This document shows, piece after piece, positions 1,819 through 44,458 of a stretch of DNA of 64,000 bases. This stretch comes from Bryoerythrophyllum caledonicum (taxonomy: Eukaryota > Streptophyta > Bryopsida > Pottiales > Pottiaceae), in the NCBI GenBank assembly GCA_963971425.1, contig OZ020524.1, positions 3,753,773-3,817,772 on the forward strand, given 5' to 3'. Position numbers and translations under genes: made by a program. Each line of letters starts with the position of its first letter. Positions within the stretch are counted from its first letter, which is position 1. The notes under the pieces were generated by a model. It was given only the letters and a program-made list of their open reading frames with translations, did not search any database and was not told where the DNA came from.

Positions 1819-1850
1819 TTAAATGCCACATTTAAGTAAATCTGGACTTT
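1819..1850 (+). repeat. Left TTAA target duplication and 28-bp terminal inverted repeat
   Basis: TTAA lies at 1,819-1,822. The element starts at 1,823 with ATGCCACA and continues with AAGTAAATCTGGACTTT to 1,850. It matches the reverse complement of the right end at 27 of 28 positions; the one difference is at base 7. Confidence 0.9.
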
Positions 1851-2456
1851 GAGATGAATCTTGGACTCTGGCACATTTCTATGAGTAAGTGGCTGGACCG
1901 GGAGATCCTCCAATGATACCGGTGCGACAGAATATTTGCATCAAGTAGTATGAAAGTTATGAAGTGATGTAGGGTCGAAGCAATAGATAAGCAAAAAATG
2001 CAACATATAGGGTTTAGGGAAATGCGACATTCAGATAAGCACAAAATGCGACATCATGGTGAGCACGAAATGCGACATTCAAGTAGGCACAAAGAATCTG
2101 TTGAGAATTATCTGTAATTGAAATTCAATGAGAAGCAATACCTCTCATGAGGGATGTGGTCAAAAAATAGTTTGTAGTAATACAAGTCACATCGAGGGAT
2201 CTCCTGACTGTTATATATTCTATTGAGAATTAACTGTAATTACAGTTCAATGAGAAGCAATGCCTCTGATGAGAGATGTGTTCAAAAAATCGTTTGAAGT
2301 AATCCCAGTCACATCGAGGGATCTCCCGACTGTTATACACTCAAGTAGATAGGAAGAAGAAGATGAAAATCAGTTGATGCTTTATTCATATTAATAACTC
2401 AATGACAAGTACTGATAAGAAAGATGGAGGGAGTACCTATTTAATCCACGAACCAT
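1851..2456. other. Left subterminal region of the TTAA element
   Basis: I see no gene here. A sequence of about 100 bp occurs twice in direct orientation (about 2,098-2,210 and 2,223-2,335), each containing AATGAGAAGCAAT and a block reading CACATCGAGGGATCTC. Three short repeats of an AAATGCGACAT word occur at about 1,995-2,075. Such subterminal repeats are common near transposon ends. Confidence 0.5.
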
Positions 2457-5245
2457 TTATAAAGTACGCAATACTCGCTCAAAGTGCCATGGTTCAAGTA
2501 GTCTTCGTCTAAACTTTCCATCCATCTCATGTGCACGAAGATATGCCTTCACCGAGCTAGAAGCTTGCAGGGGAAGAATGAACGGAAGCAAGGCCGTTCC
2601 AATGTTAGGTATAACGTTGCCGGCATTGGGAAGGGCCATTTCACCACGCCATGGCTTTGGAAAGTAGCAAGCAAAGTCTCCGTTGAAGACATGCCGCATT
2701 GGCTGGTCATCAACCATCAGTACTCTGTCAGGGAGACAAGAAGTCCTAGTTTTCCGATCAATTGATAGTCTCCGGAGGACCTTGTCGCAGAAAGGATAAA
2801 GATGTGGCCTTGAGCACTTGTTCCGGCCATAGACGAAAAGGAGTCGAGTCCTTATATCTTCGGGAAGGATAACATTAAGAACCTTCTTCAGGCGTGACGG
2901 AATCATAGAAGACCAAATACCGACATGAAAGGACTTCAGAAGGATTCTGAAGAACTCTAGGAGACCAGGACGAACTACAATATTATCTCGATTGAAGCGT
3001 CGTGGGGTGCAGTAATCGTATTTCTCGAAACAAAGGACTCCATTCAGGGACAATACAATAACTTTCTTCTGGTTGTGTAAAAGCTATGAACATGACAAAA
3101 GATCGGGAGGTTATAAATAACATTGACAGATCCTTCGATCATCCAGAAAAACAACGAGCGACGAATAAGGACACGTGAATGTGATAATGAAAGGGGAAAA
3201 ATTACGAAATATAACAACGGAGATAAACATGGTGGTCTTTTTTTAAATGAACGGAACATCCTTAAAGGCAAAAATATCCTTAAAAAATATAAACAATATT
3301 TACAATATTTACAATATTTAAAAAATATAGACAATATTTACGTCATCGATGAGACAGAAGTGTCATTGAAATTCTGGGATCGAGGGATCCCACTTCCGAG
3401 AACACCCTGTTATAATATTCCTAGAAAGCTCAGTCGTCCTCAACGTACGATCATCATGACATTCAGGGAGGGGATTGTTCTGAACAAACTCTGCTACATG
3501 GATGCGTGACGAAAACATTTTCGTCAGCCAAGGCTTCAGGCGCGTAGCGAGAAACTTGTCCTTCAAATCACCAGTCCAAGGGCGAGGATGTATAGCATTG
3601 AACTCGCGATTGAGGAGGTTCTTCTCCAGACTGTCGTCTATGAGCAAAGCGAGATCAATGTCCACGTGATCATGAAGCCGAGCGAGTTCCCTGAGGTCCT
3701 TCAGCATGTATCGTTTGGATGGATTCTCCTTTCTAGGAAAGGTTGACATTGTAGTATCAGCTTGGGACAGAACTAAAAGGTTAGTTGGCTTCAGGAGAGA
3801 GTTGCTCAGGGCATCTACTAACATGCTATCGACATTTGTCTTCATCGCACAGCTCCATATCACAATATTAGTGATTTTGTGCAACCACTTCAGAAAGAGA
3901 CGACAGTCGGGTCTAGGAATACTACTGCGCGGCAGAGAAGTCCTATGAATCAAAAATCCATTCAAGTCGAGGACAATAGTGTATCTCGGATGCCTTACCT
4001 TCGAATCGCCGGGGGATGCAAGCCGAGTACCTCCTCGTAATACTCCTGCAGTTAAGCGAACATGTAAGCATGAGTGAGGCGCATGGCGATCGGAGGATCC
4101 TTCGAGCAAGTCATATACAAACCAGGAACTGAAGACAGTGAAGTAGAAGAATGGACATGAAACTCACCTTCTGTAGAGGATGTCGAACCAATAGGAGGAG
4201 CGGATGATTCACCCATTCCACCAACATTAGCTATAGACGACCTTGGAATAATTCTAGGAGGGCTGAAGGCTAGAAGATCTTCGCTAGCATCTTCGAATAC
4301 GCCATGATGAACCTCTTCCTCGTCTGCATGGACAGCCGTAGAAGCTGTTTCTGTTTGGTGAAGACCTTGAGAAACTAGAATTGGCAACATGTCAACCAGA
4401 TTTGCCAAAGTCGCTGCGGCCAGTGACTCTGCTATGTTTTGCGGAGGGTCAGAAACAGATTCCACTGCGTGGCTGGAAGAAGGCTGAGATTCAAGTGCAT
4501 CCAACTCCATTGCTACAAGGCCGGATGTCGAAGGCTCAACATTGCCAGGTGGAACTAGATTACGTACAATCTTGCAAATAACTCTAGTTCGAGAACCCCG
4601 CTTGTTGCCAAAATAAATTACTGTTGGCTTGGGCGAGCACCAAGGCCTCTCAGCCCACTACGCTTCGTCTTGTTCCAACTTCTCCTCGTCAATTTTCCTT
4701 CACTCATCAGCTTCATTTCTTCTTCTTACATCCTCCTCCAGGTCATCCACCTCTAGCTCAATCCGGGTTGGCAACGGGGAGCACCAAGGCCTCTCAGCCC
4801 ACTCCGCTTCCTTCTGTTCCAACTGCTCCTCCTCAATCTGTCTCCGCTCATCAGCTTCTGCTCTTCTTCTTACATCATCCTCAAGGACATCCACCTCCGG
4901 CTCATCCTCCTCCCTCCGTACCTTCTCCTTGTCCTCTTCTTCAACCTCCTTAGGCCCTTTGCCTTCATGGTGGACCTGCAGGATATCTCTCCTTGGAGAG
5001 ACGTGGACAATGCTGGGATATTGTGCCGAAGCTGTAGCGGAGAACCCAGATTGGAGGGATCCAGGGGTATGGTATTCGGAACCAGGAAGCTGCGTCCATG
5101 AGTAACGATCAGTAAGTTCGTCGTCCCAGTCGGGATTTACAAACTCCAATCCGTCATTAAACATTAAAGTTGGGCGATAGTGGGGATCTAGTCGAAACAA
5201 CTCTGGATCGGGCAAAACATACGGCCTATTTACCGCAATGGCAAC
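2457..5245 (-). pseudogene. FCP1/NIF-phosphatase-like gene with two domains, broken
   Basis: I read three exons on the minus strand: 5,245-4,123, 4,045 to about 3,400, and 3,068-2,457. The first encodes an acidic, coiled-coil-prone region in which a unit of about 48 residues containing EAEWAERPWCSP is duplicated. TGA at 4,700-4,702 and TAG at 4,658-4,660 fall in the second copy. The second exon has an FCP1-like core: IVLDLNGFLIHR, then a VIWSCAMK segment and LLIDDS. The third repeats the fold with IVLSLNGVLC, GIWSSM and VLMVDD. FCP1/NIF phosphatases use DxDx(T/V). Here the motif reads DLNGF and SLNGV, so the second Asp is missing in both and the first in one; catalysis is doubtful. Introns at 4,046-4,122 and 3,069-3,400 hold copies of the GGATCC-centred palindrome. 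It may be the 3' part of the unit starting near 9.35 kb. Function is unknown. Confidence 0.6.
3285..3325. repeat. Short AT-rich tandem repeat
   Basis: Three to four head-to-tail copies of a roughly 10-bp ACAATATTTA word lie in the non-coding stretch between the two FCP1-like exons. Confidence 0.6.
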
Positions 5246-5668
5246 CTGATTAAAACATGCATCGTAGGTGAGACACACGGAGATCGAGGGATCCTTCGAT
5301 GATACTGTCTAACTGAGGACCAAGTCACGACTCACTGACGGACTAAATATATCAAGAAAGAAGACCCCAATGAAAGAGATCGACGGATCCTTCGATCCAA
5401 TTAACCGATTTGAGAAGTAGTGATGTGCGAACCATTATCGAAGGATCCGAAGGGGATGCACGCATGCGGCGATCATCTGCACCTTGAAATGCCTGCAGAA
5501 GGAGGGATATCGGAAATGAAAACATAGAATACCAAGAAATAGACATGAAGAGATTACCGTCCATTAAAAAAATTATCTATAACATCCAGAAAATTGTTTT
5601 ATGTCTGGTTCAGTCAAAGTTAGGAGGTAGTCGTTGTATCATACAGTGTTAGTGGTTTGCACACTTGG
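5246..5668. other. Intron-like gap with three palindrome copies and a possible micro-exon
   Basis: The stretch lies between two long exons of the leftward unit. It holds palindrome copies near 5,283, 5,378 and 5,440. On the minus strand an acceptor CTTCTGCAG near 5,495 is followed by a short frame beginning AFQGADDRRM, which may be a small exon ended by a donor near 5,463. Its phase with the neighbouring exons is not settled. Confidence 0.4.
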
Positions 5669-8600
5669 GATAGCATCACTTGCTCCTTCGTTGTTGACCC
5701 GGCGAGTCTTTCCACGGCGCGTCAGAAGCGGTTGTTCATCTTCATCCTCCACATCTTCTCCCCCCTCTCGCGGAATCTGAGTGTTTTCCACCTCGTCCTG
5801 GCCTCCATGTCCTCGGCCCCCATGATCCTAGCCCCCATGTTCTTCTGACGACCCGACAGAGTCCCTGTCCGAGCCATATTCATCAATCTTCTTTTCCTCG
5901 CGCTCCTCCCCGCCATGCTCCTCCTCGGACTCTGATGGCACATACGACTCGTTCGGCCCCGAGTCAGAGCGTCTTTGGCGGCCTTCATCTTCGTCGGATT
6001 CGTCATCACCGGCCGTCCCTGCATTTGGGGCATCAAAGTCAAGAGTCCTCTTACTTCTCGCCTCTTGCTGCCGAGTTGTCATTCTCACGGGTCTCTCCTT
6101 CTTCTTCGTCGGAGTTTTCTTCTTCTTCGAAGCCGGTGAAGATGGTGGGGGAACAACAAGGTTAAGAACCAATCGAGAGTCCCATATTTCAAGAGCTCTA
6201 CGCACGGCATCTCTCTCATCCTCCAGGGAATGGACGATCTCGATGACCTGTGCGCCTTTCGTCTACGACGCGAAAAACGAGACCACGAATGAGATACGAG
6301 CGTGCAAGGAACATGTGAATCAAAAAATTGCTATGAAACATAAGGGGAAGGAGATGAGATTGAAGGATCTTCCGATGATATTACCAGGCCAACCCAAGTG
6401 ACAGAAGCCCCTCCATCGACGTTGACAATGATAGTGTCGGCCCGCCCAAGTGTGCCAATTAGTTGGTTAACCGCATGAATATTAAAATTGGCCCTGTCCT
6501 TCTGTGCCCACTGTGTAGGAGCATCCTTAAAATCCGATGCAGATATCATATGCTGGTACGGCATGTCATTTCCAAAAAATGACCGGAAGTTGATTTCCGC
6601 ATTGGTATCAGGAGTCTGACCGTAGAGAAAGTTGAAGAACAAGCCTAAGGTGGGCTCAGGAGTTGGAGGCGTTATAAATCCCTCTGATCCTGACGTGATA
6701 TACATTGTAGAGGTTAAAATCCAAATCGGTGTTTGCAAGATCGGCTTGCCCCTCCCCGATAGCACATTTGCCAACTCCACTATTCCATCCCGGTCAGTAA
6801 TAAACACCCCAGGATTCTGAGCCCTCCTGAACCTCTGTGAATCTTTCCACTCCATAGCACCCAGAGTTTGGTTCACTTGATCTATGATACTCCATCGAAC
6901 TCCTTGTGTCTCACGATTGACGAAGCAGTAAACAAACACAACCGTCACATCCGGTTTAATCCACTTGAGGACGGAATCCTTTCTAAGGATCTTCTCAACA
7001 TCCCCTGATTTTCTCACCATCTGCTTTACTTTGTATTGGCTTACGAACGTGGGCCCAGAAGACGGCTCGACGACCACGTCCACTGAAGCAGCGGCGCTAA
7101 GTGTCCGCTGCTGATCAAATATGGCCTTCAACAACGGGGCGATGTCCTCCGACTTGCTAGAGGGGTTCAAGTTAGCCCCCCGCTTCTTGAAGAACTGACA
7201 TCCGCCATCGTCCTTCAGGAGTCTGTCATGCCACGTTTGGAGTATCTTGTCGGATACCTTCAGCTCACTGGCGAGCTCAATGTACTCCTCCTCCGAATAT
7301 AACTCCTTGACTGTCTTTGCTGGCAGGGGCTACTTTCTGAAGTAGTGCATCATCTCATTCTTCAGAAGCCGGAACTTCTTCTCGACGAGACACTGGTCGC
7401 GGAGTCCGGGAAGAATGGCTGGCTTCTTGAGTAATTTTGTTGATTTGATCAAAATCGCCTTCGCAATCACCATCCTAGCCATTTTCTCAATCTCGCTATC
7501 CCACATCGAGTACAGTGGTTGCAAATCGTTTTGCTTCAGAGCTCGAGAGGCAAATCGCTTTGCAGCCAGCCTCTTCTTCTTTGCCAAACTTCCCGCATCG
7601 TCCTCCTCGTCGTCATCGTCCTCGTCAGCGCCTGGAAAACTTGAAAACTTCCCGAACGAGTTGGGAAGCAGTCCTTCAATCCAGCTATCCTGGATACTCT
7701 TCCACATCCCAAAGAGTTGGTCGGACACGTACAGAAGAGGAAGTCTAGGCTGACCACCGTGTTGTTCCACTTCGAGCTTGTTATCTGCTCCAACGAATAT
7801 CGCGCCAAGTTTCTCCACCCACGTCTGCACAGAAACAAAGCGTCAGAATCCAAAACAAAGAACTGGAATCGAAAGATCCTTCGATCAAGAGTGGCCCAAC
7901 ATCACAGCCATAAAGAGAAATGAGACGACTTACCCTGAACTGAACGGTGTTTGGTGCGCCACGAATAGAGGGCTTGGGCCTTCCAGCATCAATCCAGCTC
8001 TTCCTTGCAGTTTCAAGTTGTCTGAGATAATTACCTTCGCTTCGATTCCCAGCGAGGTCCTGGTTCAGAACTCTCGAGTAGTAAATGAGGGTCGAAAGTT
8101 TCTCGGGTGTTGTCCACACAATTGTGACGCAAAAGCTACTAGCATCCCTTGCGTCTCCAGGATTGAGAGTTCCTTCTTCAATGAGAAAATTGTGTGCCGC
8201 TACACAATGTTGGCCACCAATTATATAGAAATGCGTCTCCTCATTGATGTCCTCCTTCATGGGTTCCTCCAAAAAATAATCCGCCACCGCCAAATCAGAG
8301 TCGTTGGGCCGCGGAGGTCCCTGTAGTGGCATCACTTAAACATGCTGCAATGATGCCTGGAAGGAAGGCATCATCCTCTTCTGGTCAACGAGTTGAATAA
8401 CTCGATGCGGATCGAGTGGACTATACACCACCACACCGTCCGGTGCTCTGTGAAGGTGAGATATATCCACTACCATGTCGGAACCAACATCGTCAACCTT
8501 GTATGGACGCCGGCCAAATATATGGAGGACCCCAAATTCCCTCTCGTACAGCTCCTTAACTTGTTGAAGGTCCTTCGGAGAGTACTTAGCCACCGTTGTG

Positions 8601-9347
8601 TGTGACAACTGCACAGCTTTTGCTAATGTCATCCCGTCTTTCTTCAGATCTGACTTCTTCCGCTGCGGCCTCTTCTTACAGGGTTCCCCTTGCGCTGCAG
8701 TACTAGTCAATGATGGCCTCTTCCGACTCTTTGGGGGTGTGGGAGGAGTAGTCTTCTTTCCGCTCTTGTTGGCCGACTTGCACTGGGCCCGCAGCTCGGC
8801 CCACCTAGTCTGAATTGATCGATCATCGGGTCCCTACGCCGATTAGGAATCCGAAATCCTTCACCGTTGTGCAACACTTAGGGCTCAATGTAGTGGTATT
8901 CATCACAAGGCCATACACCCTCGAACATCCGGAACTCGTCACGAACTCGCTAATGACAAGGAGGTACAGGTTGATGAAGTCGGATTTCACCAGGTTCAGC
9001 ACCTCAAGGTTCTTTGTCGTAAACGATATGGGATCTCCGGCTGGCAATTCTTGGTTGTTTATAAGGATAACAGGCGCAATCGAACTCTCTCCTTCGCGGT
9101 ATCTCGCTCCCATGCCAATCCCCATTCGTAGACATTATCCGCCATGAAAAACACCGCTAGGTCTTCAGGCCCATCATACTTCGTCTTCTTGAGTCCACAA
9201 CTGACCGCCATGTATAGCTTCACAGGGCACCAGTCCGGGTTTACGGAATCCGACGGGATCAAGTTAGCCCTGCGCATTCGGAGAACCACATAGATATGAT
9301 TAAGATCCGTATAATCATCAGTGAAAATACCAGGACACCATGAGATC
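5639..9347 (-). pseudogene. Large multi-exon gene of unknown function in the TTAA element
   Basis: Four minus-strand exons join with matching phase 0: about 9,347-8,838, 8,814-7,934, 7,824-6,385 and 6,247 to about 5,650. Junctions show GTAAGT at 7,933, CAG at 7,825-7,827, GTAATA at 6,384 and CAG at 6,248-6,250. The frame is open over roughly 1,100 codons except for TAA 8,336-8,338, TAG 7,330-7,332, TAG 5,828-5,830 and one frameshift near 9,120 in a run of four Gs. Visible content: a basic stretch of the KKRPQRKK type, an acidic run EDDDDEEDD, a middle part with no motif I know, and a charged Ser/Glu-rich tail with KKKKTPTKKKERP, which could be a nuclear signal. I do not recognise the family. 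Introns 7,825-7,933 and 6,248-6,384 hold the palindrome. It probably continues into the FCP1-like exons downstream. Confidence 0.6.
8815..8837 (-). other. Abnormally short intron-like gap
   Basis: Between two phase-compatible exons the minus strand reads from a GTAGGG donor to an ATTCAG acceptor over about 23-28 nt, with remnants of the palindrome (CGATGATCGATCA) inside. This is below normal plant intron size. It may be a collapsed intron or a deletion scar. Confidence 0.4.
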
Positions 9348-9585
9348 GTTCAACGAGACTGCCTAGCGGGATCGATGGATCTCTCGATCAGTCCAAAAAA
9401 TCTACTTTATTACTCACCATCCACCATTGAAAACTGGATAGATAAATTGACCCGTGGGTCTGCAACGATCGAGGGATCCACCGATCCAAAAATGCCTATC
9501 ATGGATAATGATGAATGGGGCAAGAGGACTCATATGCGAGAGATCGATGGATCAATCGATCTCATGACATAGTATATGACAAACC

Positions 9586-9796
9586 CGGGGTATCGGAGGA
9601 TCCATCGATCCCAGATGATCGGAGAGACCATCATCCTAGAAGATTGGAGGATCCATCGATCTTAGAAGATCGATGAGTCCATCAGTTCCAAATGATCGGT
9701 GGATCCGTTGATCTCAGAGGATCATGTGGTCCAGCAATCCATATAATCGGAGGATCCATCGATCCTTTTAGATCGAAGGATCCGTCGATTACAGTG
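9586..9796. repeat. Cluster of about seven GGATCC palindromes
   Basis: Degenerate copies of GATCGGAGGATCCATCGATC follow each other at roughly 30-bp spacing, just upstream of the leftward unit. The position between the gene and its likely promoter suggests a protein-binding array or an expanded repeat. No protein frame is visible. Confidence 0.8.
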
Positions 9797-10730
9797 GATG
9801 ACCCTATGCAGGGGTCGTCCGTACAGTGTAACGTATTTCTAATTCTACCCTAACATGTACATTTATACCGGCGTGCTGGAATGCAATCCAATGAAATGAA
9901 ATTGCAGCACTCCACATTGCATACTGATACTTTTGTAGATAATTCTTAAAAACTATGCATGCTAGATCCTATTTCATCTTGATGGAGAGGTTATGGATAC
10001 TTACAAATTCAGCCATTCTGGCCGCTCAATCAGTCCTGGGACCACGCCCGCCATTCTTCTATCTACAAAGCACTGCGCGCAAGAAAAATAAGATCAGAAC
10101 CACTGTTACAAGAACCCAATTTGACATACTAATGCAACAACTAATTCAAATTGAGATAAACAAAAAACAATTGTCATAGTTCCGACCGATGTGTGCATTT
10201 CTAAGTGTTGCAAATCTATATGCATTACCTAAACTTGTGAGCTGTTGAAGCAAAACTGGATGGTGCAAACCTAGGAGAAAATAAGAAACTAGTTAACAGT
10301 CTTACCTCTCAAAGGAATTCAATCGCTGCACCCTTTCGTAACGATGCGGTTGCTGATGTCGCATCCACAGAAATCGCACGCAGCTGGAGGCTAAACCAAA
10401 AACCATCCAGTTTTGCTTCTACAGACCCTGCCCTCATGAAGAAACTCAGACTTGCAAAAGCGCCACAGAATTACACTCACACTTGCAAACCGCGACAAAT
10501 TTACACTCAGAAATCGAATATGGAATCGCCCACAGTAAACTGAGCCTAATCTGAAGCTACGAGTTTGGAGAACATGGAAACCTACAGCAAAAACGGGAGA
10601 GAGAGACGAGAGAGAGAGAGAGGAGAGAGACGAGAGAGACAAAGTGAGAGTGAGGGAGAGAAAGTGGGAAACTGGAAGGATGCCGTGACACACGCGGCCA
10701 AAAATTATTACTACTCATGATAACTCGTAC
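9797..10730 (-). promoter_or_regulatory. Possible 5' region and leader exons of the leftward unit
   Basis: Read on the minus strand, a pyrimidine-rich CT tract (10,594-10,660), typical of plant leaders, is followed by a segment ending at a GTAAGA donor near 10,305. A short exon then starts after a GCGCGCAG acceptor near 10,072, contains an ATG with the frame MAGVVPGLIERPEWLN, and ends at GTAAGT near 10,003. This looks like promoter, untranslated leader and first exon of a plant-type gene reading into the unit below 9.35 kb. The connection is inferred from order and strand only. Confidence 0.35.
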
Positions 10731-10911
10731 TTAGATGTCGCCCTCGTACCGCTGAGTAGCTCGACCGCTTAGTGACAGTTAGCAGTAATCATAATGCTTT
10801 CCTCATCATGATTGCAACTGAGACTATAGTTTTCCTTTTCAATAACTAATTTTTTCTGTTAAGAATATAATTCTTCTTTTTGATTGAAGTTTAATTACAT
10901 CCAAGATTACA

Positions 10912-12543
10912 ATTTTCAATACTATCAAGTAAAAAAAAATGCCTTTCGTATTGTGAAAAATAAACTTTAAATACTATCAAGTAAAAAAAAATGCCTTTCG
11001 TATAGTAAAAAATAAATTCAATACTACCAAGTAAGAAAAAAGATTCAATACCATCAAGTAAATAGAAAGATTCAATACTATCAAATAAAACAAAAGATTC
11101 AATACTATCAAGTATAAACAAAGATTCAATACTATCAAGTATAAAAAAAATTCAATACTATGAAGTTAAAAAAAAATTGTATAGTAAAAAAAAAATTACA
11201 ATTCAATACTATCAAGTAAATAAAATGCCTTTCGTATTGTAAAAAAAAATTCAATACTATCAAGTAAGAAAATAGATTCAATACTATCAAGAACAAAAAA
11301 TGATTCAATACTATCAAGTGAAAAAAAAGATTCAATACTATCAAGTAAGAAAAAAGATTCAATACTATCAAGTAAATACAAAGATTCAATACAATCAAGT
11401 AAAACAAAAGATTCAATACTATCAAGTATAAACAAAGATTCAATACTATCAAGTAAAAAAAATGCCTTTCGTACAGTAAAAAAAATAATCAATACTACCA
11501 AGTAAGAAAATTCAATACTACCAAGTAAGAAAAGAGATTCAATACTATGAAGTTAAAAAAAATTTGTATAGTAAAAAAAAAAATTTACAATTCAATACTA
11601 TCAAGTAAATAAAATGCCTTTTGTATTGTAAAAAAAAAATTCAATACTACCAAGTAAGAAAAAAGATTCAATACTATCAAGTGAAAAAAAAAGATTCAAT
11701 ACTATGAAGTTAAAAAAAATGCCTTTTGTATTGTAAAAAAAAATTCAATACTATCAAGTAAGAAAAAAAATTCAATACTATCCAATAAATACAAAGATTC
11801 AATACTATCAAGTAAATAGAAAGATTCAATACTATCAAGTAAAACAAAAGATTCAATACTATCAAGTATAAACAAAGATTCAATACTATCAAGTATAAAA
11901 AAAATTCAATACTATCAAGTATAAACAAAGATTCAATACTATCAAGTATAAAAAAAATTCAATACTATGAAGTTAAAAAAAATTGTACAGTAAAAAATTA
12001 TTTACAATTCAATACTATCAAGTAAATAAAATGCCTTTCGTATTGTAAAAAAAAAACTCAATACTATCAAGTAAGAAAATAGATTCAATACTATCAAGAA
12101 CAAAAAATGATTCAATACTACTAAGTAAGAAAATAGATTCAATACTATCAAGAACAAAAAATGATTCAATACTACTAAGTAAGAAAATAGATTCAATACT
12201 ATCAAGTGAAAAAAAAGATTCAATACTATCAAGTAAATAGAAAGATTCAATACTATCAAGTAAAACAAAAGATTCAATACTATCAAGTAAGAAAAAAGAT
12301 TCAATACTATCAAGTAAAAAAAAAGATTCAATACTATCAAGAAAATACAAAGATTCAATACTATCAAGTAAATACAAAGATTCAATACTATCAAGTAAGA
12401 AAAAAGATTCAATACTATCAAGTAAATACAAAGATTCAATACTATCAAGTAAATACAAAGATTCAATACTATCAAGTAAAACAAAAGATTCAATACTATC
12501 AAGTATAAACAAAGATTCAATACTATCAAGTAAAAACAAATGC
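10912..12543. repeat. 27-bp minisatellite with an interspersed TGCCTTTCGTATTGT block
   Basis: Some fifty to sixty head-to-tail copies of a 27-bp unit, GATTCAATACTATCAAGTAA plus a variable AT-rich tail, fill this region. Blocks of TGCCTTTCGTATTGT interrupt it at about 10,941, 10,993, 11,227, 11,464, 11,615, 11,721, 12,032 and 12,541, giving a higher-order arrangement. Because 27 is divisible by three, long frames without stops appear on both strands; they are by-products. It lies in the core of the TTAA element. Confidence 0.93.
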
Positions 12544-12984
12544 CTTTCGTATTGTCAAAATAAATTCTTGTCTTCAGTGAAAAACAACATACTAGCCCAA
12601 GTCAATCATTTTCACACATTGTAAGACATTGTCGGGCAAGGTACCAAAAAGACTTCTTCCTTTGCTTATGAAACTTAGAGATCTTCTCATTTGTATTTAT
12701 TTCTTTTTTCAACAACAATATGTGGTATGAACCTTCCTATTGACCATAATATGGATTATCAAATAAAACCACTTGAAAATGCAACATTGTAATGCACAAT
12801 GCTTTGGTAGCTTTAAATCTCGGAGCACAAAGATGTAATTAATTTTTATTGCCAATGCAATTTTAACAAGTATTTTAACAAGTTCCACCACATTTTGGCC
12901 AACCTCACAAGTCCATGGAATTTATGAAAAATTTGGACACAAAAAAGATGCCGTAGAGGCTATGAGTATACAAGCAAATGAATA
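12544..12984. other. AT-rich spacer, start of a duplicated segment
   Basis: I see no gene. From about 12,800 the sequence (AGCTTTAAATCTCGGAGCAC onward) is repeated in direct orientation from about 14,228. Confidence 0.6.
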
Positions 12985-13510
12985 GACCCTACACCTTCAT
13001 CCCCAAATGCTAGATCGTAGACCCTACAACCTAGATTGTAGTCCCTATAACCTAGATCGTAGATTCTAGAGCCTAGATCGTAGACCCTACAACCTATATC
13101 GTAGATCCTATAACCTACATCGTAGACCCTAAAACCTAGATCATAGACCCTATAACCTAGATCATAGACCCTATAACCTAAATCATAGACCCTATAACCT
13201 AGATCGTAGACCCTACAACCTAGATCGTAGATCCTAGAGCCTAGATCGTAGACCCTACAACCTATATCGTAGATCCTATAACCTAGATCGTAGACCGTAC
13301 AACCTAGATCGTAGACCCTACAACCTAGATTATAGACCCTACAATCTAGATCGTAGATCCTACAACCTAGATCGTATATCCTATAACCTAGATCGTAGAC
13401 CCTGCACCCTGAGCCCTAAGCCCTGAGCCCTAAGCCCTGAACCCTGAACCTATGCATATTAGGTGATTATGACTCGTATTTATTCTGAACCATATCATGA
13501 AACAATGAAG
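12800..13510 (+). repeat. Copy 1 of a direct duplication of about 700 bp with a 21-bp tandem array
   Basis: A unique-looking block (12,800-12,985) is followed by about twenty copies of a 21-bp unit, TAGACCCTACAACCTAGATCG with variants (12,985-13,405), then CCCTAA/CCCTGA words and a closing block with TATGCATATTAGGTGAT near 13,451. The same order returns at 14,228-14,910. Confidence 0.85.
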
Positions 13511-14227
13511 ACTTTTAGAAATTAAAGACACGAATTATTGTGGACAATACGAAAGGAAATTTTCCACAACAATATGTGGTATGAACCTTCCCATTGACCA
13601 TTTGGATGATCAATCTAAAACATATTAAGTTTACAAAAAAATAAAACGTGCGTTGGCAATTATGTTTTAACCCCCCCTCCTTGCATAGTTGTTTTGAATA
13701 CGCTACACACCTCCTCTACATCTACAAATTGGTGAATAAGAAACTAACATCATGCTTGACATGTTGGTATTGGATTTAGATCTTCTGTAGTGCAAATTAT
13801 TATTCGACTCTATTATTGTGTATAACATTCTCATTCAATAAAATTTTGATTTCACAAATTAGTAACATTGTATCAACAATGCTTAGTAGATTTAAGATGA
13901 AACAATGAAGGCTATTAGAAATTAAAGACACGAATTATTTTTCAATGTTTAGGACATCAAGAATTTTTGACATTATGTAGGCAAATAAAATCACTTAAAT
14001 TTGATTAATGTTATGTATTGCAAATATTATCATTTGTTATTCTTGTACAAATTGTTTGAAAATGCAACATTGTTCGAGTAACTTCTGTGTAACAATGTTA
14101 TTCAAATAACTATAATTTATTGAACGACGTCAACAAACTCTTTAATAGTCCACATGAAGATATATTTGTCTCATTGAGCATTTAAGTTATTACCATGCAC
14201 ATCATCCATATTAAATATATTGCACAT
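13511..14227. other. AT-rich spacer between the two duplicated segments
   Basis: There is no supported gene. An inverted copy of the minisatellite block (ACAATACGAAAGG) occurs near 13,548. An ACAATATGTGGTATGAACCT word is shared with about 12,714. Confidence 0.6.
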
Positions 14228-14910
14228 TGCTTTGGGAGCTTTAAATCTCGGAGCACAAGGACGTAATTAATTTTTATTGCCAATGCAATTTTGAACAAGT
14301 ATTTTAAACAAGTTCCACCACATTTTGGCCTACCTCACAAGTCCATGGAATTTATGAAAAAATTTGGACACAAAAAAGATGTCGGAGAGGCTATGAGTAT
14401 ACAAGCGAATGAATAGACCCTACACCCTGAACCCTAAATGCTAGATCGTAGATCCTAGAACCTAGATTGTAGACCCCAGAACCTAGATCGTAGATCCTAG
14501 AACCTAGATTGAAGACCCTATAACCTACATCGTATACCCTATACCCTAGATCGTAGATCCTATAACCTAGATCGTAGACCCTTTAACCTAAATTGTGAAC
14601 CTTGCACCCTAAGCCCTAAACCCTACGCAAGAAACTCTAAACCCTGAACCCTGAACTTTGAGCCATGAACCCTGAACTTTGAGCCTTGAATCCTGAATTT
14701 TAAACCCTAACCATGAAACGTTGAACCTTGAACCCACATTACAAAACCCTAAACCGTATACATGATGTACCCTATTAACCGGGATGTACCGTGCACCGTA
14801 AGCCCTGAAGCTGATGTACTGTTAACTTGGTAAACACTAGACCTTAGACCCTTGTCCCTATGCATATTAGGTGATCATTACTCGTATCCATTCTGGACCG
14901 TACGATGTTC
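14228..14910 (+). repeat. Copy 2 of the 700-bp duplication, with a degenerate array and telomere-like words
   Basis: It repeats the plan of 12,800-13,510 but with fewer 21-bp units (about 14,440-14,600) and a longer tract of CCCTAA, CCCTGA and similar words (about 14,600-14,760). These resemble degenerate plant telomere repeats but are mixed and imperfect, so I do not call a telomere. Confidence 0.8.
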
Positions 14911-16192
14911 ATCTGAATTTTTTAACCGCAGGATCGCCATGATCATCCGACGTTGTCATCTCCACGGTAACATAGGAACTAGTCATTCTTTTATTCCCCC
15001 TTTGCTGGCATTTTTACTTGAAGGTACGAATTAGAATAATTAGTTATCAAGAGGCACGGAACCGATATCCACTACTTAGACAATGATGGTGAATCCCATC
15101 CCGCCAAAATGAAGTAGATTGAATCACCATCAAATTTCCCTCTCAACTTTGAAAGACGAGGGCGATTACTCTCGCACTCTTGAGGCTCTTGTTTGTTTCA
15201 GGTCAGAATTGGATGCGAGGTTTCCTGTTTCTTCAAGAACTGGACAGTTAGTGAGTGAGGTATTGAGTTCTGTCCTCCTCTAGACGAAGTAGCCTTCGTC
15301 CTACTCCGTGAGCTTCAATTCCATGCGCTTGAGCAGGTTTACTATTGTCGTCTACCATAGAATGCCTTGAGTTTATCGTCTTTGGTATTTTGCGCGGCAG
15401 GTGGGAATGTGGGTGTCCTCGTTTGATATCACAGTCCTCTTTGTTTCGCAAATCGTGCACTTGATTCACTTTCGGATTTCTCTCTTTGTAGGAGATTGTT
15501 TGTTTGTATTAGTTGGAAGCTGACTAAAGAAATATCGATGGCAAGTAGGTTATGTTGCCCAAGTGGCTGATGCTTGCTGGAGGTTTAGGTTACCGCCCTT
15601 GTTATAAGTAATTGCAACGTTCTTTGATTAATGAGCTATGCTGTGCAACATCAATAATTCTTATGTAATATTCAGCCGTTTTGCGAATGGATTTTGCTAC
15701 GATACTATTGTGTAGGGTATGTGGGATACAGATTCTGTTATGTACTGCTAAATATGACTCAACCTCATTTTATGCATCCCAAGTTTGACATCATCAGGTG
15801 AAAGAGTAGAGAATATTGATCTTGTATATATCATGCCATGAATGTGATTCCCGTTCGATCACTACCTTCCATCTTGGTTCAATATATTGTAATATATCAT
15901 TTGGTCTCGTTGCGATTACTATACAACTACTTCTCTGTTCCGTACAGTCTTACGTGGAGCTATCCCAATTTTTGCAGACCTGGGTAGGTTCCGTGGAGAT
16001 CGAAGGATCCTCCGGTCGTACATATCAATCCGTTGATCGACCGAACCCGAGGAAGATCGATAGATCGAGAGATCCTCCGATCCCTACGGTGATTGCACGA
16101 TTCTTCAATCTTGGGTCTGATACAGGGTTACTCGGGTACATAGGAAGATTTTCGACATTACCGGGTTCAAATTAGGATCGAAGGATCCATCG
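14911..16192. other. Region upstream of the rightward gene
   Basis: I see no confident exon. Palindrome copies lie near 15,998, 16,060 and 16,173, the last ending one base before the ATG at 16,193. The interval would be expected to hold the promoter and leader of the rightward gene. Confidence 0.45.
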
Positions 16193-19100
16193 ATGTCCTC
16201 ATCTGAAGGATTGCCGGATGTGTTTGCTGATCCAATGTATGGTGGTGGTGTCGCTAGCGACACTGACTAGTGTGATGAATTCAGCCCCGACATGGAAGTT
16301 ACCCTTTGCTACACAAACCATGGCTCTGTTGGGAAGGGAATTGTCATTGAAGCGATACCCACTGGGCATTGGCTTGGTGTTGACATCAATCTCACCATGG
16401 TCGCAATGTCTCTGCTTAGACCTATTGAGATATTTCATGAGGCGCGCAATCTTATTATTCGGCCGTTGCAAGAGGGCGTATCTCTCTTGGCGGATTTGAT
16501 AGGTAGAACGGTTCTCTAGGAGGCATCGCAGGTAGTGTTGCAATCGAGGGATCCTTCGATGGGCCCGGACGTAGGCAATACATCCGGTTCCACTTGCGCC
16601 CCTCCTTTTGTCCCTCAGGCAGAATGGGTGGGAATGGTGGTTCGTCGCTATGGCTGTGATGGGAATCTTATTGCCTCAGGTCGTGTCAATTGCTCTCTCC
16701 CCGATGAGCCATTCCAGGATAGTACTTTGGGGGAGTGAAACATTGGCGTTACTGTATTTGACGTATTCATCGGGGATCAAGATGACATTATGAGTCATCA
16801 AAGGTGGCCCATCCCCGAATGTAGATTCAAGGGCAGTCATGGCCTTAGCGAGACGGTTGCTCATTTCATTCGAATTCTTGAGGCATCGGACCCAAATGCG
16901 CATCTTGGTGGTCGTCCAAAAGCACCGTATCGGTTTGTTCATCGTAAGAAGAGAAGTGAGGAGAAGCTCAGTGCGTACTCAAAGAAGACTTGTCAGGATG
17001 TGGTTCAAGCAGTAAGTTCGCTATTATGCTGCCCTGACAAGTGTGTTCGATTATTCCGGCCCCAAGATACCTTGTTTATCCGACAACGGTACTTTCTGAA
17101 GGACTTTGATGACGAGCGGGAATATGGAATCGTTGTGGGCGGGCAAGTGCGTCACATGGGCAATAATCGGAAACGGACCTACGTTACTTTGCTCGATCAA
17201 GATGTCTGCGCAACAGCATGGTATAAAATTCATGGTATACCAAACTCGACATTCCACAGCTATATCGACCAATACAAAAAGGGTATCTTGTCATCAACGC
17301 ACGGAAACAGAGGCGTCAAACGTCCCCGCCTTGGAACCGTGCAAGCAATGGGTACGATTTCAGCTATCATCAATGAGAACGCCGATTACATGCCTCACCA
17401 GATGCGGACAACTGTACCAGAGCGATGGACACACTGAAGTTCTTACCGTCTGGTCATAGCTGGAAGAGGATTCAGGCTGACGCCACAGAGGTAATCATGT
17501 CCAGAAACCACCTCGAAGCTCCAATTATCCTTCTTGGTCAACCACTCCCATTGCGTGGCGATACCTGATGCTCTTAGGCTTCATTATATTTGATCGAGTA
17601 TCCACATTTGAAATTCTCATCACACAATCTTTATGCAACTTCCAATATCTGAACGATCACTTAGTCGCTCTGAAATGACTACATGTCTGTACTCACCTCC
17701 ATCTGGAAGCGATACCAGTTTTTATGTGATCGAAGGATCTTTCGATGCCAGTAGTAGCCTCAGTGTTGATGTTGCTGATACTCAGTGAATCGCTCTGTTT
17801 GCAGACAAACTTGGAGTACGGGTTGCCCAAGGTTTCTCAGTCTGCTGTTAGTAGAATCAAGAAGGAACTCTTCAACAATGTTGCTGTAAAACCCGTGGGC
17901 AGTTGATTTGCAAAGTGCACCCTCTGTGACACTCTTCAACAATTCATTAGCAAATCCGTGAAGGGCTCCGCCGAATATGTGTCATTCATTGAACAACGAC
18001 ATGCACACTTGAACCACCAAGCTTCGTGTAGGCGTGTGTACCATACCTGGAGAGAGGAGTCTAAACGCAGGAAAGGCGAAATCATTTGCATTATCCACGA
18101 TAAAATGGATACTGCCAAGACTGCCATCCCTCGTATGCGAGTTACCACGAAACAGAATTCAGGTCTTGGTCAGCTCCCGGTGAACGTCACCGGCTTGGTC
18201 ACGCATGGACAAGGAGACGGTGCCTACGCTCACTATTCTACTGACTTGTGGCCAGGAGACTCAAATTATACAATCTCGTCTATTGCGAGATTACTTCGAC
18301 GTCTCGAGGAACCACCCATTCGCGTCACAGGTCGACTTTTCCCTTACGAGCCGGCAAACTCATTCTTTGCGGCATTGCTTAAAGGGAAGTCTAGATGTAT
18401 GGACGTTTTACCTATGGTGGTACCGAACTACTCAACTGCAGCCGTCCCACTACCAAACAATCTATATTTGTAGCTAGACAACTCTGCAAAAGATAATAAG
18501 AACCAATTTCTCATGGCGTTCTTATCTATGTTGACTTACCAAAGGGTGTTCAAGGAAATCAAAGTTGGTTTCCTACTAGTCGGGCATACACATGAGGATA
18601 TTGATGCTTACTTCAGCCACTTGTCCAAGGCCTTGAAGAATAAGAATTCATTTGTCGTCGCTGATTTGATGAAGTCCTTCATGGAATCGGAGGAGATGAG
18701 TTTCATGCCCGAGTTTGTTCAGGAGGTTGCAGATTTCAAATCTTTTGTCTCTGGCTATATATGTGATGGTGCACAAAGACTTGTTGGTTTAGGAGAGATG
18801 CACCTCTTCAAATTCTACGTCGATGAAGACGGTTGGCCCGTCATGCGTTACAAGATGTTTACAATTGATCAGCATTGGCTACCTCGAAACAAGCCAGGTT
18901 TACGTCTTTGGAAGGAGGATAACGACGGCAATCCCATCATACCTTCTGGCTTCCCAAACCCAGTTCCGTTCAAGCGTTTGTGGGGAGACGAGGTTCCTTC
19001 TTCAACCGACAATCAAGTGAAGGCAAGAGAGAAAGCTGCCAAAGCACTTGATAAGAGGTCGTTCATTAAGTCTGGAATACGAGGTTATATATAATACTGG

Positions 19101-19730
19101 GAACAAGGGATGCGTTCATGTGAGGGCTTTTGAAGGGATTTTCCACCTTATGTCGATTACTGGAATGCAAAACTTGCAAAACTAGAACAACCTCTTCCTC
19201 CCACTCCTTCGGCCCTAGTAGAAGGCTTCTGGCCAATCCATGACTGGAGTGCGATAAGTCGAACTCCCTTATATCTCACTGCTAGAGGAGATGTCACACC
19301 TGAAGACGTCGAACCTGAAATTTATTGTGGTCCACGCTCGGAAAAGCCAAAGGAGTCGTTGAATCCATGGCGAGATGTCGTACCGGGATCATGGGTCCTA
19401 CTCTGTCCCTCAGACCCTGAAATATATCCTGTCTGGTAAGGGAGAGCGCATTCAGTAGTCAATAGAGAAGTTGGACATGAGGAGTATGGTAAGTTCATTC
19501 TCCAATTCTAGGAGCCAAGAAATGCGTTCAAGGACCACAAGAAGAAGTACGAGGATTATTGGACATCAACGTGGGTTCCCGAAAATGGACGTCTAGTTAG
19601 CGTTCATGTTGATGCCGTCTTGTTTGCCTCTTGGTCGAAGAAATTGGATTCGAAGACACGGACAATTCCACAGAGGGACAAAATTGCAGCAATGATTAAC
19701 CTTGCAGCCGCAAACAACGCGGACCCATGA
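16193..19730 (+). pseudogene. DUF7869-type transposase-like gene, decayed
   Basis: Three exons are visible: 16,193-16,531, 16,619-17,490 and 17,805-19,730. The product matches my memory of the DUF7869 family, widespread in mosses, lycophytes, corals and algae: FIRQRYFLKDFDDEREYG, then ATAWYKIHGIP, IIHDKMDTAKTAIPRM, LDNSAKDNKN and VGHTHEDIDAYFSHLSK. The spaced Asp/Glu residues look like an RNase-H/DDE nuclease, which would make it the element's transposase; that is inference. The frame is interrupted by stops at 16,268, 16,517, 16,736, 17,904, 18,471, 19,092, 19,131, 19,437 and 19,509 and by a frameshift near 17,415, yet family similarity continues across each. Both introns carry the GGATCC palindrome (16,541 and 17,730). 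The ATG at 16,193 was chosen because the frame and the likely N-terminus begin there. Confidence 0.75.
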
Positions 19731-20540
19731 CCACATAGTTGTTTATAATTCAATCGATGGATCCTTCGATGCAGTTGGAAACAAGGCAGGCCCTCTACCT
19801 TGTAGGAGGCCACCAATTCGTTCGAAGGATCGTTCGATCATTGTAGATCTACTTGGCCAGGGCATATGTATGAATCTCACATGTCTTCTAATTTTGGTGC
19901 ACATGCATAAACATTTTTGGCTTTCTCATTTATTGTCTACAATGTATCAGCCTTTCGTAGATACTTTTCTCCGTATTGCAATTGTGTGCATGCTACATTT
20001 GATTCTTACGTATGATGCATGAATCAACATTTGACTCCTGACATTCACGTCTTTAAACCATGTATTTCGTCGCTTCGCCGATTAATATCAACTAACGTTT
20101 TGTATGTTATCGTTTCGTTGCATCGGAGGATCCTGCGACCCTTATTTATCAATCTTGTTGCCAATAAATCTAGCCATACTATTGTTGTGCAATATTTCTA
20201 TAATAGTGTATGTCCATGTTTTTAACTTGCACGACGTTTTGTACTTCATTAATTGCAAAGCGCCAAATAACATCTGTGGGATTGAAATTGTATTCTCTCT
20301 ATATAAATTGAGTCCCATCGGTGGATCCTCCTATTGATTGACCTAGTTTGCACGCTACATCATGACTCCTTTCAATTCTTGTAATTTTACTATAACTCAT
20401 TTTCTGCTTGTCAAAAGTTTTATTCACCATCTAATCTGATCCTGTCAAAGAATCCAGCGAAGGATCCCTCGAAGCATTTCTACGCTTTGTACCATGATAT
20501 TCCTTGACTAAATCTGGACTTTGACCAATCTAGACTTTTC
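19731..20540. other. Right subterminal region of the TTAA element
   Basis: There is no supported gene. Palindrome copies occur near 19,752, 19,820, 20,126, 20,315 and 20,460. Just inside the right terminal repeat, an AAATCTGGAC word (about 20,510) stands in opposite orientation to the terminus, forming a small hairpin with it. Confidence 0.65.
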
Positions 20541-20572
20541 AAAGTCCAGATTTACTTAAATATGGCATTTAA
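20541..20572 (-). repeat. Right 28-bp terminal inverted repeat and TTAA target duplication
   Basis: AAAGTCCAGATTTACTT starts at 20,541 and the repeat ends TATGGCAT at 20,568, followed by TTAA at 20,569-20,572. The centrin exon sequence resumes at once. Confidence 0.9.
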
Positions 20573-26440: not shown

Positions 26441-26562
26441 TGTGCATATTTGAAAATTTTTATTGCTGTTGATTTTCAATTGTTCTTGAATTGTGAATGA
26501 CATGATTGTGGGGCTTGTGTTTCAGGTAGGAGTTTACTACTTGTTACTTTTTCTTTGTAAAG

Positions 26563-37331: not shown

Positions 37332-37665
37332 CGGAATCAACGATAAAAACCACTTCTGGATCAGCATACACAAGAACCAAGCCTACTCCCAGGCTGAGCA
37401 AACACAAATCCCACAAGGAACATCCCCATCTTCCAAGCCCTCGCTCACCACATTGCAAAGCCCCTGCCATGCATCGGACACGAATACTACCCTCCAACAC
37501 ACCACCCGCGACCATCGCACTCCAAGAAATGCAGCAGTTATCGCAACAGGATATAAACAAGCCCGAACCAGCCATTGGCTTATCAAACCCTAACTTCAAC
37601 CAAACCTTCTACACTCCTGTCAAACCACAGGTTCTACTCCATACCCACTCATCTTCCACAACGTA
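37321..37665 (-). other. Right-arm copy of an unrecognised reading frame
   Basis: On the minus strand one open frame runs LGFDKPMAGSGLFISCC through GGVLEGSIRVRCMAG to GLVLVYADPEVVFIVDSDAN and stops at a GTAAGC donor (37,320-37,315). It is uninterrupted here, whereas the left-arm copy is shifted by two nucleotides near 31,702. The donor suggests a real exon whose gene was cut by the inverted-repeat breakpoint nearby. The family is unknown to me. Confidence 0.4.
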
Positions 37666-38621: not shown

Positions 38622-38624
38622 TTA

Positions 38625-40433: not shown

Positions 40434-43263
40434 TTGGCAATGAGAGCGCTGCAGTTCGACGTGAAGAAGGCGGAGGTGAAGATGCTGCTCGACAAGTTCG
40501 CGAAAGAGTGCGAGGACGAAGTAAATTATGAGGAGTTCATGGAAATCAGTTACGACTAAACTTGTGAAAGTGCTAGTGATCATGTGAACATTCGTCGCTT
40601 GCATATGCATTTACAATCATGAAACACAGTTGGAGTTGCTACGTTATCTCTCATGTAACTTAGTTCTTCATTTTCCTCCATAAAATTTTACGTTCATGAA
40701 TCATGTCCATTGCTCCATAAATCGCCATATTGGTTATATTGGCCACTAAAAAGAGTATGATTTGTACCTTCCAATGATGCACCAAATTAGCCAACTCTAG
40801 TTAGTAAATGGATATAGCACTAATTAAACCAAATATGGCAATGTGAGCTAAGGTAAACCCCCTAAACCCTACAAGTTAAGGAATGAGCATATACGGGGAG
40901 AGGAGATAATTATACTATTGTTTTTCACTAATAGCCAATGGAATTTCAAATCCAACCCAACTAATTTCATATTTTTCCAAGGAAAATTGAATTAGTTATG
41001 AATTTTCAAACTGTGCAGTCATGTTTAGTGGTTGGCCAGCAGTAGGTACCCCATACCTAACGACCAATAGTAAGGGTCTTAACTAAGAGCATACCTCCAT
41101 TTAGAGCTGAGTTGGTGGTAATTGGATGGAAGAGGGTTGGATATACCCCAATTTTATAGGCGTTGGCTATGGATTTTTGTTGGTTATCGGCGGGCTTACC
41201 TTATAGATTCAATGATACTTGATGCGTTAACTGAAACAAAGCAGTAACCATAGAAAGATTATCTGCTCTAGTGAAGTTTAAAGTTGTGATATTCTTCATT
41301 TGTGACTTTTGATTGATCGTCTAATAACGTGATTATAAGAGATAATCTGCCTTGACAAGATTACGAGAATTTATTTGCACATTATCTACTCCTATTTTGC
41401 AAATGACCTACTAGTTATGCTTGCGTAGTACCTACTTATGTATGCACATTACCTAGTGGGCATGGACTTAGTGGTGGAATGACCGGACACTTTATTCATG
41501 CCAGCCCCCTTCGGAGACCGGCGTTCTTTTTCTTCTTCTTCTTGCACATTACCTATGCCTTTCACATCTATGAGGTGCAAATTTTTATGTTTCGTCATAA
41601 ATTGCTCATGGATGTGATGTCAGTGGTTCTCAAATACAAAGAGAAAGACCCTATTGACGATGTGATAAAGGCATTCGGATACTTTGACAAGGATGGCACT
41701 GGGAAAGTCTCTGTAAGTCAAGCATTTCTTTTGCATCCATAATAGTAATTAGCACATGTTGCCATTTCATCAACATGGGTTATTGCATTCTCTCAAACCC
41801 ACTTTGACCTTGTCTTTCTGATGATATTGATTAACTTATTACTCCTTCATTTTAAAAATACATTCTATTTTAGTGTATTTTTAGAACGTAAACTACTATC
41901 AATTTTAGATAATCGAATGAAAAAGGTTCTCAAATATTTGTTTGTCCATTGAAATGGGTTAGTTGTCATCCTGGTGACTCCAAGCGTCCATTATAGCATG
42001 ACTTGCTCCTTGCCTTTTATAGCTAAAGAACTTGCGTAAAATCTCAAAAGAGCTTAATGAGAATATCACGGATGAAGAACTCATCACCATGATTGAGAAT
42101 TGTAAGCTTCTGAATTCTGCAATAATTTATTGAAGTCGTTTGCAAAGTCACCCAAACTTGCATTTAGATACTCGTCTTTTGATATAAAATATTAGTGTCT
42201 TTTACTCTTAATTGCAACTCTAATTAAGTGTGGAAGAGTTTGGTGGTTTCTAATGTTAAGTCCTTATTAAGTATGGAAGAGATAATTGGTGATTTTGAGA
42301 AATCATTTTAGCGGTCTTTGAGAGTGAAAAAGGAGAGGTCTTGTTGTACGATGAATCTTAGCTGCATTTTTGCTCTTGAACTAAATATAAAGATTTAGAG
42401 TTGTTTAAGGTCAACTTTACTGATTGGAAATGAGAAGAGGGTCAAAATTATAGGAAATTTTACCTCACTTTATATAATGTTCTATTAAAGTGTGCAAGTT
42501 GCTAAGTCTTCGTAGAGTATATGATCCACAACCTATATTGACCTATGTTCGCTTTGTTCACAAACAATATGTTCTTGTTGTATTTTTGCAATTGACAAGG
42601 ATGCCGATGGAGAAAGTAAGCTTCTCAACATAACCACTTCTTTTCCTTTCATTATATCAAAGTTTGGAACTAGTTTGTAAGAAAATAATTGAAATTTGTA
42701 TATGAGTAGATTGTATTATCAAAGAGAGTATCATCTAATTTGCATGTTGTGCTCAGGAAGTTTTGTGAGACATGACTGATTACTTGTTAAAAGAAACTAG
42801 AATATGCCATCACTCAAAAATTCAATAAGCTTACTCCCTTTTTTATCATTTTAATCTCTATTTTATTATTCTAAATAATCAATGGATTAATTCAAGAATT
42901 TGGTGGTGTTTCAATAAGAATCCTTCAACTCAATCAAAGTTGGTCTCTAAACTCAAGTAAAAGTAGCACTTAGATTGAAGAAAAACTTACATGACATACC
43001 ATGATTATTGATTGTTTTTCTCTCTTTATATTGATCTTAGATGAATTGAGAACTGTTAAGAGCATATTTCAACCATTCAAAATGGGAATAAAAAAAGGGA
43101 GGAGAGTATCTTATTATAACTTTGAGTGACTTTACAAATAACTCTAATATACTAAAGAAAATTCCTATTTCACATGTTCTGTTGTTGCTCAATGTGTTCA
43201 GTAAGCATGGCAGAGTTTTTTGAAATTATGAAGAACAAGGATAAAGAGGAACAAATTTCTTGA
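40434..43263 (+). pseudogene. Centrin-like gene, right copy, lacking exon 1
   Basis: Exons 2-6 are present: 40,434-40,548, 41,624-41,712 (ending GTAAGT), 42,023-42,101, 42,592-42,615 and 43,202-43,263. They read LAMRALQFDVKKAEV, then FDKDGTGKVS (third EF-hand), ISKELNENITDEELITMIEN, DKDADGE (fourth EF-hand) and MAEFFEIMKNKDKEEQIS followed by TGA. The exon with the start codon and first EF-hand, present in the left copy at 22,386-22,529, is absent. Exon 5 is preceded by GCAA instead of GCAG, as in the other copy. Exon 6 ends about 12 residues earlier than in the left copy because of a small length change. Centrin binds calcium at basal bodies and spindle poles. This copy cannot encode a full protein unless another first exon is used. 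Confidence 0.85.
40851..41201. mobile_element. 351-bp MITE with TA target duplication
   Basis: The ends are AGGTAAACCCC at left and, in reverse complement, AGGTAAGCCCG at right. TA lies outside both ends (40,849-40,850 and 41,202-41,203). The left arm keeps the unfilled site near 21,330. The TA duplication suits Tc1/mariner-type MITEs. No coding is visible. Confidence 0.8.
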
Positions 43264-44237: not shown

Positions 44238-44458
44238 TACACTAAATTTTATGTATAGTGTCATGCACAGTAAATGACTTGTGAATGCTATAAGTCTTTA
44301 TTTCTAATGAAGATTTTTACTAAGAGCACATAAACTTGTTTTATTCAAAGAGGGGGATTATTGTAGACACAGTTGGTAAAAATATTCATCAAAAGTAAAA
44401 CTTTATAGCATTTACAAGTCGCTTACTGTACCTGACACTAATCATAAAATTTAGTGTA
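44238..44458. mobile_element. Palindromic MITE with TACACTAAATTTT ends
   Basis: Two halves of roughly 95 bp are inverted copies of each other; each starts TACACTAAATTTTATG and contains GTAAATGACTTGT-like words and a GCTATAA segment. The partner in the left arm is cut by the window edge. The termini share TACACTAAA with the AT-rich elements. Confidence 0.75.

Follow-up and report, generated by a model that had tools for sequence, protein, structure and literature searches.

The moss Bryoerythrophyllum caledonicum carries, in a 64,000-nucleotide stretch of contig OZ020524.1 (positions 3,753,773 to 3,817,772, assembly GCA_963971425.1; hereafter the window, whose coordinates are used unless a contig is named), a decayed copy of a real transposon that spans 1823-20568 (18.7 kb). 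It represents what is very probably a large family of cut-and-paste DNA transposons of autonomous build, with a DUF7869 protein as the transposase, FCP1-like modules and a dispersed palindrome that would act as a binding site. The surprise lies in the FCP1-like pair, which this branch of elements conserves as part of its core. The gene blocks occur in a fixed order: FCP1-like modules 1 and 2, followed by an exon with a GGQH motif (hereafter GQH), lie on one strand, and the DUF7869 gene is divergent to them. The features in the window are:

1819..1822, no strand: target duplication, left copy (TTAA), from flank comparison
1823..1852, plus strand: left terminal inverted repeat ATGCCACATTTAAGTAAATCTGGACTTTGA, from the inverted-repeat match
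2457..3083, minus strand: FCP1-like module 1; its NIF domain covers about 2667-3065 and its motif I, VLSLNG, has Ser in place of the catalytic Asp
3363..4045, minus strand: FCP1-like module 2; its NIF domain covers about 3516-3983 and its motif I is VLDLNG (DxN)
4046..9134 (approximate limits), minus strand: remainder of the multi-exon unit, with the GQH exon at about 7934-8833 and further upstream, interrupted in this copy by a stop and a frame change
3122..20473, no strand: 18-bp palindrome ATCGAAGGATCCTTCGAT, 24 copies when up to 4 mismatches are allowed
10915..14735, no strand: tandem-repeat block inside the element, of 27-bp and 21-bp units, without coding evidence
16190..19730 (approximate limits), plus strand: likely transposase gene, with DUF7869 at about 18153-18308 and 18474-18863 and an intron at 17491-17804, broken by stops and a frame change
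20504-20531: second, imperfect copy of the end sequence just inside the right terminal inverted repeat, from sequence match
20539..20568, minus strand: right terminal inverted repeat, from the inverted-repeat match
20569..20572, no strand: target duplication, right copy (TTAA), from flank comparison
42054..42057, no strand: empty target site in the paralogous arm, from arm comparison

The inverted ends (1819-1852 and 20539-20572, 34 nt each) are 97% complementary; counted from the base after TTAA, 27 of 28 end bases pair, with the sole mismatch at base 7, and the pairing continues to base 30. TTAA is present at both borders (1819-1822 and 20569-20572), and the paralogous arm of a large inverted duplication (reverse complement of 41991-42120) is uninterrupted, with a single TTAA (42054-42057) at the point where the element inserted. 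These observations sustain the claim of an earlier note on this DNA that it holds a transposon with precise ends, and the DUF7869-type gene and the two FCP1-like domains recognized there are likewise borne out by matches to both Pfam models above their cut-offs (see below). In the window copy, stops and frame changes disrupt the reading frames of both the transposase and GQH; other genomic copies keep these exons open.

Across the 437 Mb of genome searched, an end pattern of 33 bases, allowing up to 3 mismatches, was found at 37 places (24 forward and 13 reverse) and its reversed control at none, indicating that the end matches are not due to chance. Searches with the left and right 500 bp returned 44 and 67 matches, respectively, several of them fragments of one copy or the right end's internal repeat. 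From these, 24 left/right pairs in the same orientation were matched by eye, spaced about 11-83 kb apart, the longest of which probably contain later insertions. Both flanks were inspected in 16 of the 24 pairs, and 14 of these 16 copies display exact 4-bp duplications: TTAA (window), TTAC, GACA, GAGT, GAAT, ATAT, ATTC, GCTC, AAAT (twice), TCAA, CATG, ATGT and TGGT. The two inexact copies are on contigs C14 (GTGA/GTGG, three of four bases agreeing) and C3 at 11.5 Mb (TTAT/CAAA, none agreeing). A sister subfamily, whose left end (ATGCGACATTTAAG...) differs slightly from that of the window family, has exact duplications in six of the eight copies inspected (TCAC, CAAA, TTAT, TCAT, GAAA and ATAT), the exceptions being those at C1:14.0 Mb and C14:1.37 Mb; for seven of the eight, the right flank was taken as the four bases given beside the end-pattern match. 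The sister copy on C10 shows the same order of parts, namely left end, FCP1-like module 1, module 2, GQH and a divergent DUF7869-type gene by the right end. When a more distant family considered below is included, exact 4-bp duplications are seen in 22 of 26 copies over three DUF7869 groups.

Thus, the duplication is four bases long and varies in sequence, with TTAA being incidental to the window copy. The earlier description of the element as TTAA-duplicating has to be given up: TTAA is one of the 14 exact duplications in the window family and none of the eight in the other two groups. A TTAA-specific element of the piggyBac or Kolobok type would account for the TTAA flanks of the window copy; however, it has next to no probability, since the varied 4-mers at the sister copies exclude such a specificity, and in Pfam at E up to 1 no transposase model, piggyBac included, matched the four plus-strand open reading frames (ORFs) of the transposase gene, which returned only DUF7869 and DUF7501 (E 0.37). 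Kolobok is described as TTAA-specific with 5'-RR termini, and some Kolobok or KolobokP lineages as carrying accessory proteins (PMC9587614). Our elements share the 4-bp duplication with Kolobok and KolobokP, but their duplications vary and their ends begin with ATGCC (window), ATGCG or AACAC. Membership in piggyBac or Kolobok was accordingly rejected on the non-TTAA 4-mers in 13 of the 14 exact window-family duplications, and membership in Kolobok also on the ATGCC start of the window ends.

The DUF7869 protein is likely to be the transposase. Two pieces of the plus-strand gene match the domain (PF25273), at 27.0 and 111.3 bits (cut-off 26), and a Pfam scan of one long relative gave DUF7869 and one weak match (E 0.077). 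A genome search with the DUF7869 profile yielded 3612 first-look candidates, the best 150 of which all exceed the cut-off; many of these 150 lie within a single long open frame, which frequently has 1066-1087 codons. We followed a distant family to both ends at C8:28487462-28499771 (12.3 kb), where it has ends AACACGCAATTAAGCAATTATGCACTTGGCC and the duplication TATT, and in a second copy on C4 with the duplication ATAT; both of its two copies thus have exact duplications. It encodes two divergent genes, one transposase-like (1074 codons) and the other a frame of 1363 codons. In a further family with 1087-codon proteins, the right end has a core in common with the window end, TAAATATGCACTTGG versus TAAATCTGGACTTTG, the offset being identical in the two (by eye). 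The motifs I.D.MD, DN....NKN and VGHTHEDID are invariant in all five aligned proteins (window, sister subfamily and three from other families).

Given that DUF7869 genes lie in terminal-inverted-repeat elements with 4-bp duplications in all three groups followed, a transposase is the natural reading, and the link of DUF7869 to a mobile element drawn in the earlier note is upheld. That note had also set DUF7869 genes outside TTAA-flanked units against such a role. In the families followed to both ends such genes do lie outside TTAA-flanked units; nevertheless, the mobile role is strengthened because they sit in terminal-inverted-repeat elements of their own with other 4-bp duplications. The protein would act as a three-Asp transposase that binds the ends, excises the element and inserts it through a cut staggered by 4 bp. 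A search of viral contigs for relatives gave 23 pattern stretches, none of which was confirmed, and no paper naming the domain was found in the literature searched, which here and below has most subscription papers outside its coverage.

It is an evenly balanced question whether the element is simply a Sola transposon, probably Sola1, in which case DUF7869 would be a second name for the Sola transposase and the remaining genes would be additions. Sola is described as having 4-bp duplications, a three-Asp (DDD) transposase and a size of 2-9 kb, sometimes above 15 kb, and as occurring in the moss Physcomitrella (PMC10741241, PMC9033089); Sola2 elements are on record that combine AT-rich duplications of 4 bp with an extra gene acquired by capture (PMC3627910). 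Compared by description only, our elements resemble Sola, and Sola1 of Physcomitrella in particular, in having 4-bp duplications that are not TTAA-specific, a size that may exceed 15 kb and a moss host; the three invariant Asp motifs may correspond to those of its DDD transposase of RNase H fold. Against this stands the description of Sola from bacteria as well (PMC10741241), as scanning prokaryote genomes with the DUF7869 alignment gave 497 pattern stretches, none of them confirmed. A further difference is that no FCP1 or C-terminal domain (CTD) phosphatase genes are reported in transposons among the literature matches listed, in a search that was not aimed at GQH-like genes or palindromes in Sola. 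Sola is hence the best structural fit, matched by description and not by sequence, and the earlier view that no named superfamily shows this combination is doubtful, at least where duplication length and size are concerned.

The two FCP1-like modules were recognized through the NIF/FCP1 domain (PF03031), which scores 35.5 and 53.2 bits in two minus-strand ORFs (curated cut-off 21.8) and also matches all four relatives scanned. The FCP1/SCP/TIM50 (NIF) phosphatases have the catalytic motif I DxDxT, and the full motif is lost in both modules. In module 1 it has become (L/V/C)S(V/L)N, with Ser in place of the catalytic Asp (SxN), in ten of ten sequences read (the window sequence is trimmed in the alignment and was read from its ORF translation). 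In module 2 it is (V/I)LDLNGFL in four of four (window, C10, C1:42.58 and C6:1.36), with the first Asp retained and the second replaced by Asn. Judging from these residues, the modules are probably enzymatically inactive.

These modules are firmly tied to the remaining genes. A genome search with module 1 gave 1739 first-look candidates, the best 150 of which are 61-100% identical to it, and one with GQH gave 151 matches from the best 150 of 913 candidates, 150 of which were used for the linkage counts. Among the best 150 module 1 matches, 90 have a listed GQH match upstream on the same strand within 60 kb, with the distance falling between 4.4 and 6.5 kb in 65 of the 90; the corresponding controls are 6 on the opposite strand and 3 on the wrong side of the same strand. 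Similarly, 82 of the best 150 transposase matches of this branch (from 3281 candidates) are divergent from a GQH match within 60 kb, as against 11 on the same strand and 5 convergent. As all these are the best matches listed, the unpaired ones may have partners outside them. Between the subfamilies, the ratio of nonsynonymous to synonymous substitution rates (dN/dS) is 0.17 in the transposase exon and 0.17-0.20 over the four pairs compared for module 1. Of four GQH pairs, two gave 0.18 and 0.24 and the other two were saturated, and one of two module 2 pieces gave 0.20. Between the window and C14 copies the ratio is higher (0.34-0.63), as expected of decaying copies.

These results bear on whether the FCP1-like genes are a chance capture from the host, carried as passengers. 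Capture of host genes by transposons happens, and the second protein of the distant DUF7869 family is without an FCP1 domain. However, the recurrence of module 1 through the best 150 candidates, its linkage to GQH, its constraint between subfamilies and the identical Asp to Ser change in all ten sequences make such a passenger status quite improbable. The earlier note was thus right in that FCP1-like genes are present, while its term "unusual cargo" understates their place among the conserved core genes of this branch.

The combination of constraint with a lost catalytic motif points to binding rather than hydrolysis, and we propose that the FCP1-like modules dock on the CTD. The weakest step of the proposed mechanism is that they would be non-catalytic binders, perhaps of phosphorylated RNA polymerase II tails or of another nuclear partner, and would thereby aid the expression of the element or its evasion of silencing. 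A fuller version is conceivable but rather doubtful: a catalytically dead pair resembling polymerase II tail phosphatases, kept as core genes, might dock the expression or insertion machinery on transcribed chromatin or blunt silencing, with a regulator and the palindrome coevolving in each subfamily. A recurrent non-transposase gene has a parallel in fungal transposons that carry a TET/JBP dioxygenase gene (PMC12730594); these differ in enzyme family, host group and transposases.

The palindrome ATCGAAGGATCCTTCGAT is concentrated in the element. All 24 sites that the window contains at up to 4 mismatches fall inside it; at up to 5 there are 27 inside and 1 outside. In 100 first-order resamplings of the element, the count averaged 0.22 and never exceeded 3. 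The copies start at 3122, 4089, 5283, 5379, 6359, 7868, eight positions in 9371-9772, 15999, 16064, 16177, 16543, 17729, 19753, 19821, 20122, 20317 and 20456. Genome-wide, with up to 1 mismatch, there are 132 places per strand as against 81 for the reversed pattern, which is a weak control; of the 13 exact palindromes listed, 10 are enclosed by left/right pairs of the family or less than 4 kb away from one of its left ends (by eye), and those at C1:53781795, C7:22253776 and C10:20822287 were left unplaced.

In the 24 sites positions 4 and 8-11 are invariant, and 6 and 13 vary freely. The sites might be splicing or RNA-structure signals rather than sites for a DNA-binding protein, given that each of the four introns delimited by eye (4046-4167, 6263-6383, 7825-7933 and 17491-17804) contains one. 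This is nonetheless unlikely: eight of them cluster upstream of the minus-strand gene (9371-9789) and five near the right end, and pairing between the arms is seen at positions 6/13 in only 8 of 24 sites and at 5/14 in 14 of 24, a pattern closer to a dyad protein site than to an RNA hairpin. The sister subfamily on C10 has the form ATCGTAGGATCCTACGAT, with T/A at positions 5/14 in 19 of 29 generic sites, whereas the commonest class in the window is A/T (14 of 45 generic sites); of four further subfamily pieces, two have the T/A form. That this symmetrically altered version is found at comparable places favors a binding site, and scattered sites whose two halves have changed in step point to joint change of the site and of a binder encoded by the element. 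The palindrome would be a dyad site bound by a protein of the element, probably a regulator. Upstream of its transposase, the family with 1087-codon proteins has another perfect palindrome, this one of 24 bp (GAGGGGTCGAGGCCTCGACCCCTC), in 3-4 copies with one near-copy of its core (seen in L075 with L069 and in L076 with L070); no left end was identified for this family, and the palindrome may or may not lie inside the element.

Several results weigh against the overall reading of an autonomous family with these components. An exact duplication is absent in 4 of the 26 copies, one module 2 piece is less constrained (dN/dS 0.42), and two of the four further subfamily pieces have no such palindrome. 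The 1363-codon protein of the distant family found no match in a Pfam search, and FCP1 therefore looks core only to the branch of the window element. PDB searches with profiles of the transposase, GQH and FCP1 module 1 (module 2 not being covered) returned no relatives, and a single-sequence search with GQH gave three weak matches, the best of them an ankyrin-repeat protein (E 0.0076). Finally, AlphaFold models of the transposase piece and the GQH exon have a mean predicted local distance difference test score (pLDDT) of 34.9 and 36.6, respectively, too low for either fold to be usable.

Two leads on GQH were set aside. By eye, only its short GGQH..AA motif resembles ParB/sulfiredoxin; such a fold was rejected and is a lead only, as there was no match to ParB_N (PF02195) or a relative in Pfam, NCBIfam, PDB-profile and genome searches, and no paper on ParB with a eukaryotic transposon was found in the literature covered. 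The same GGQH motif in the second gene of the distant family was also considered; with blastp at E 0.26 to 0.31, a sub-threshold whole-protein hidden Markov model value of 0.011 and a negative motif domain score, homology is not claimed.

The genomic setting of these elements is uneven. Contig C1 (65.2 Mb) makes up 14.9% of the assembly and holds, at about 12.6-64.8 Mb, 96 of the 150 best GQH matches, 84 of the 150 for FCP1, 83 of the 150 for the transposase of this branch and 22 of the 44 left-end matches; of the best 150 DUF7869 matches, mostly from other families, only eight are on C1, all at 2.8-11.8 or 61-65 Mb. Contig C1 could be a sex chromosome, or else a large block that does not recombine. 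The window itself is dominated by the large inverted duplication (1-31700 and 37396-44344, the listed arms being 87-99% alike), whose left arm holds the 18.7-kb element and, from the shift between the arms, about 6 kb extra between 24.1 and 30.9 kb. Within the latter (26530-29170) are two divergent groups of ORFs resembling, by eye, a PIF/Harbinger transposase and a Myb-like partner. Near the center of the duplication, between 552-nt arms that are 99% identical, ORFs with TIR-domain, NB-ARC and leucine-rich-repeat-like regions (33154-36966, by eye) form a plant disease-resistance-type gene, and at 57348-60222 there are ORFs like the reverse transcriptase of a long interspersed nuclear element (by eye).

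Taken together, DUF7869 gains a role in mobile elements, most likely as a transposase, and a branch of DNA transposons is seen to keep two FCP1-like domains under constraint despite the loss of their catalytic motif. The use by a transposon of a module of the host-transcription type thereby becomes testable, and the paired change of palindrome and element provides a natural experiment on binding specificity.

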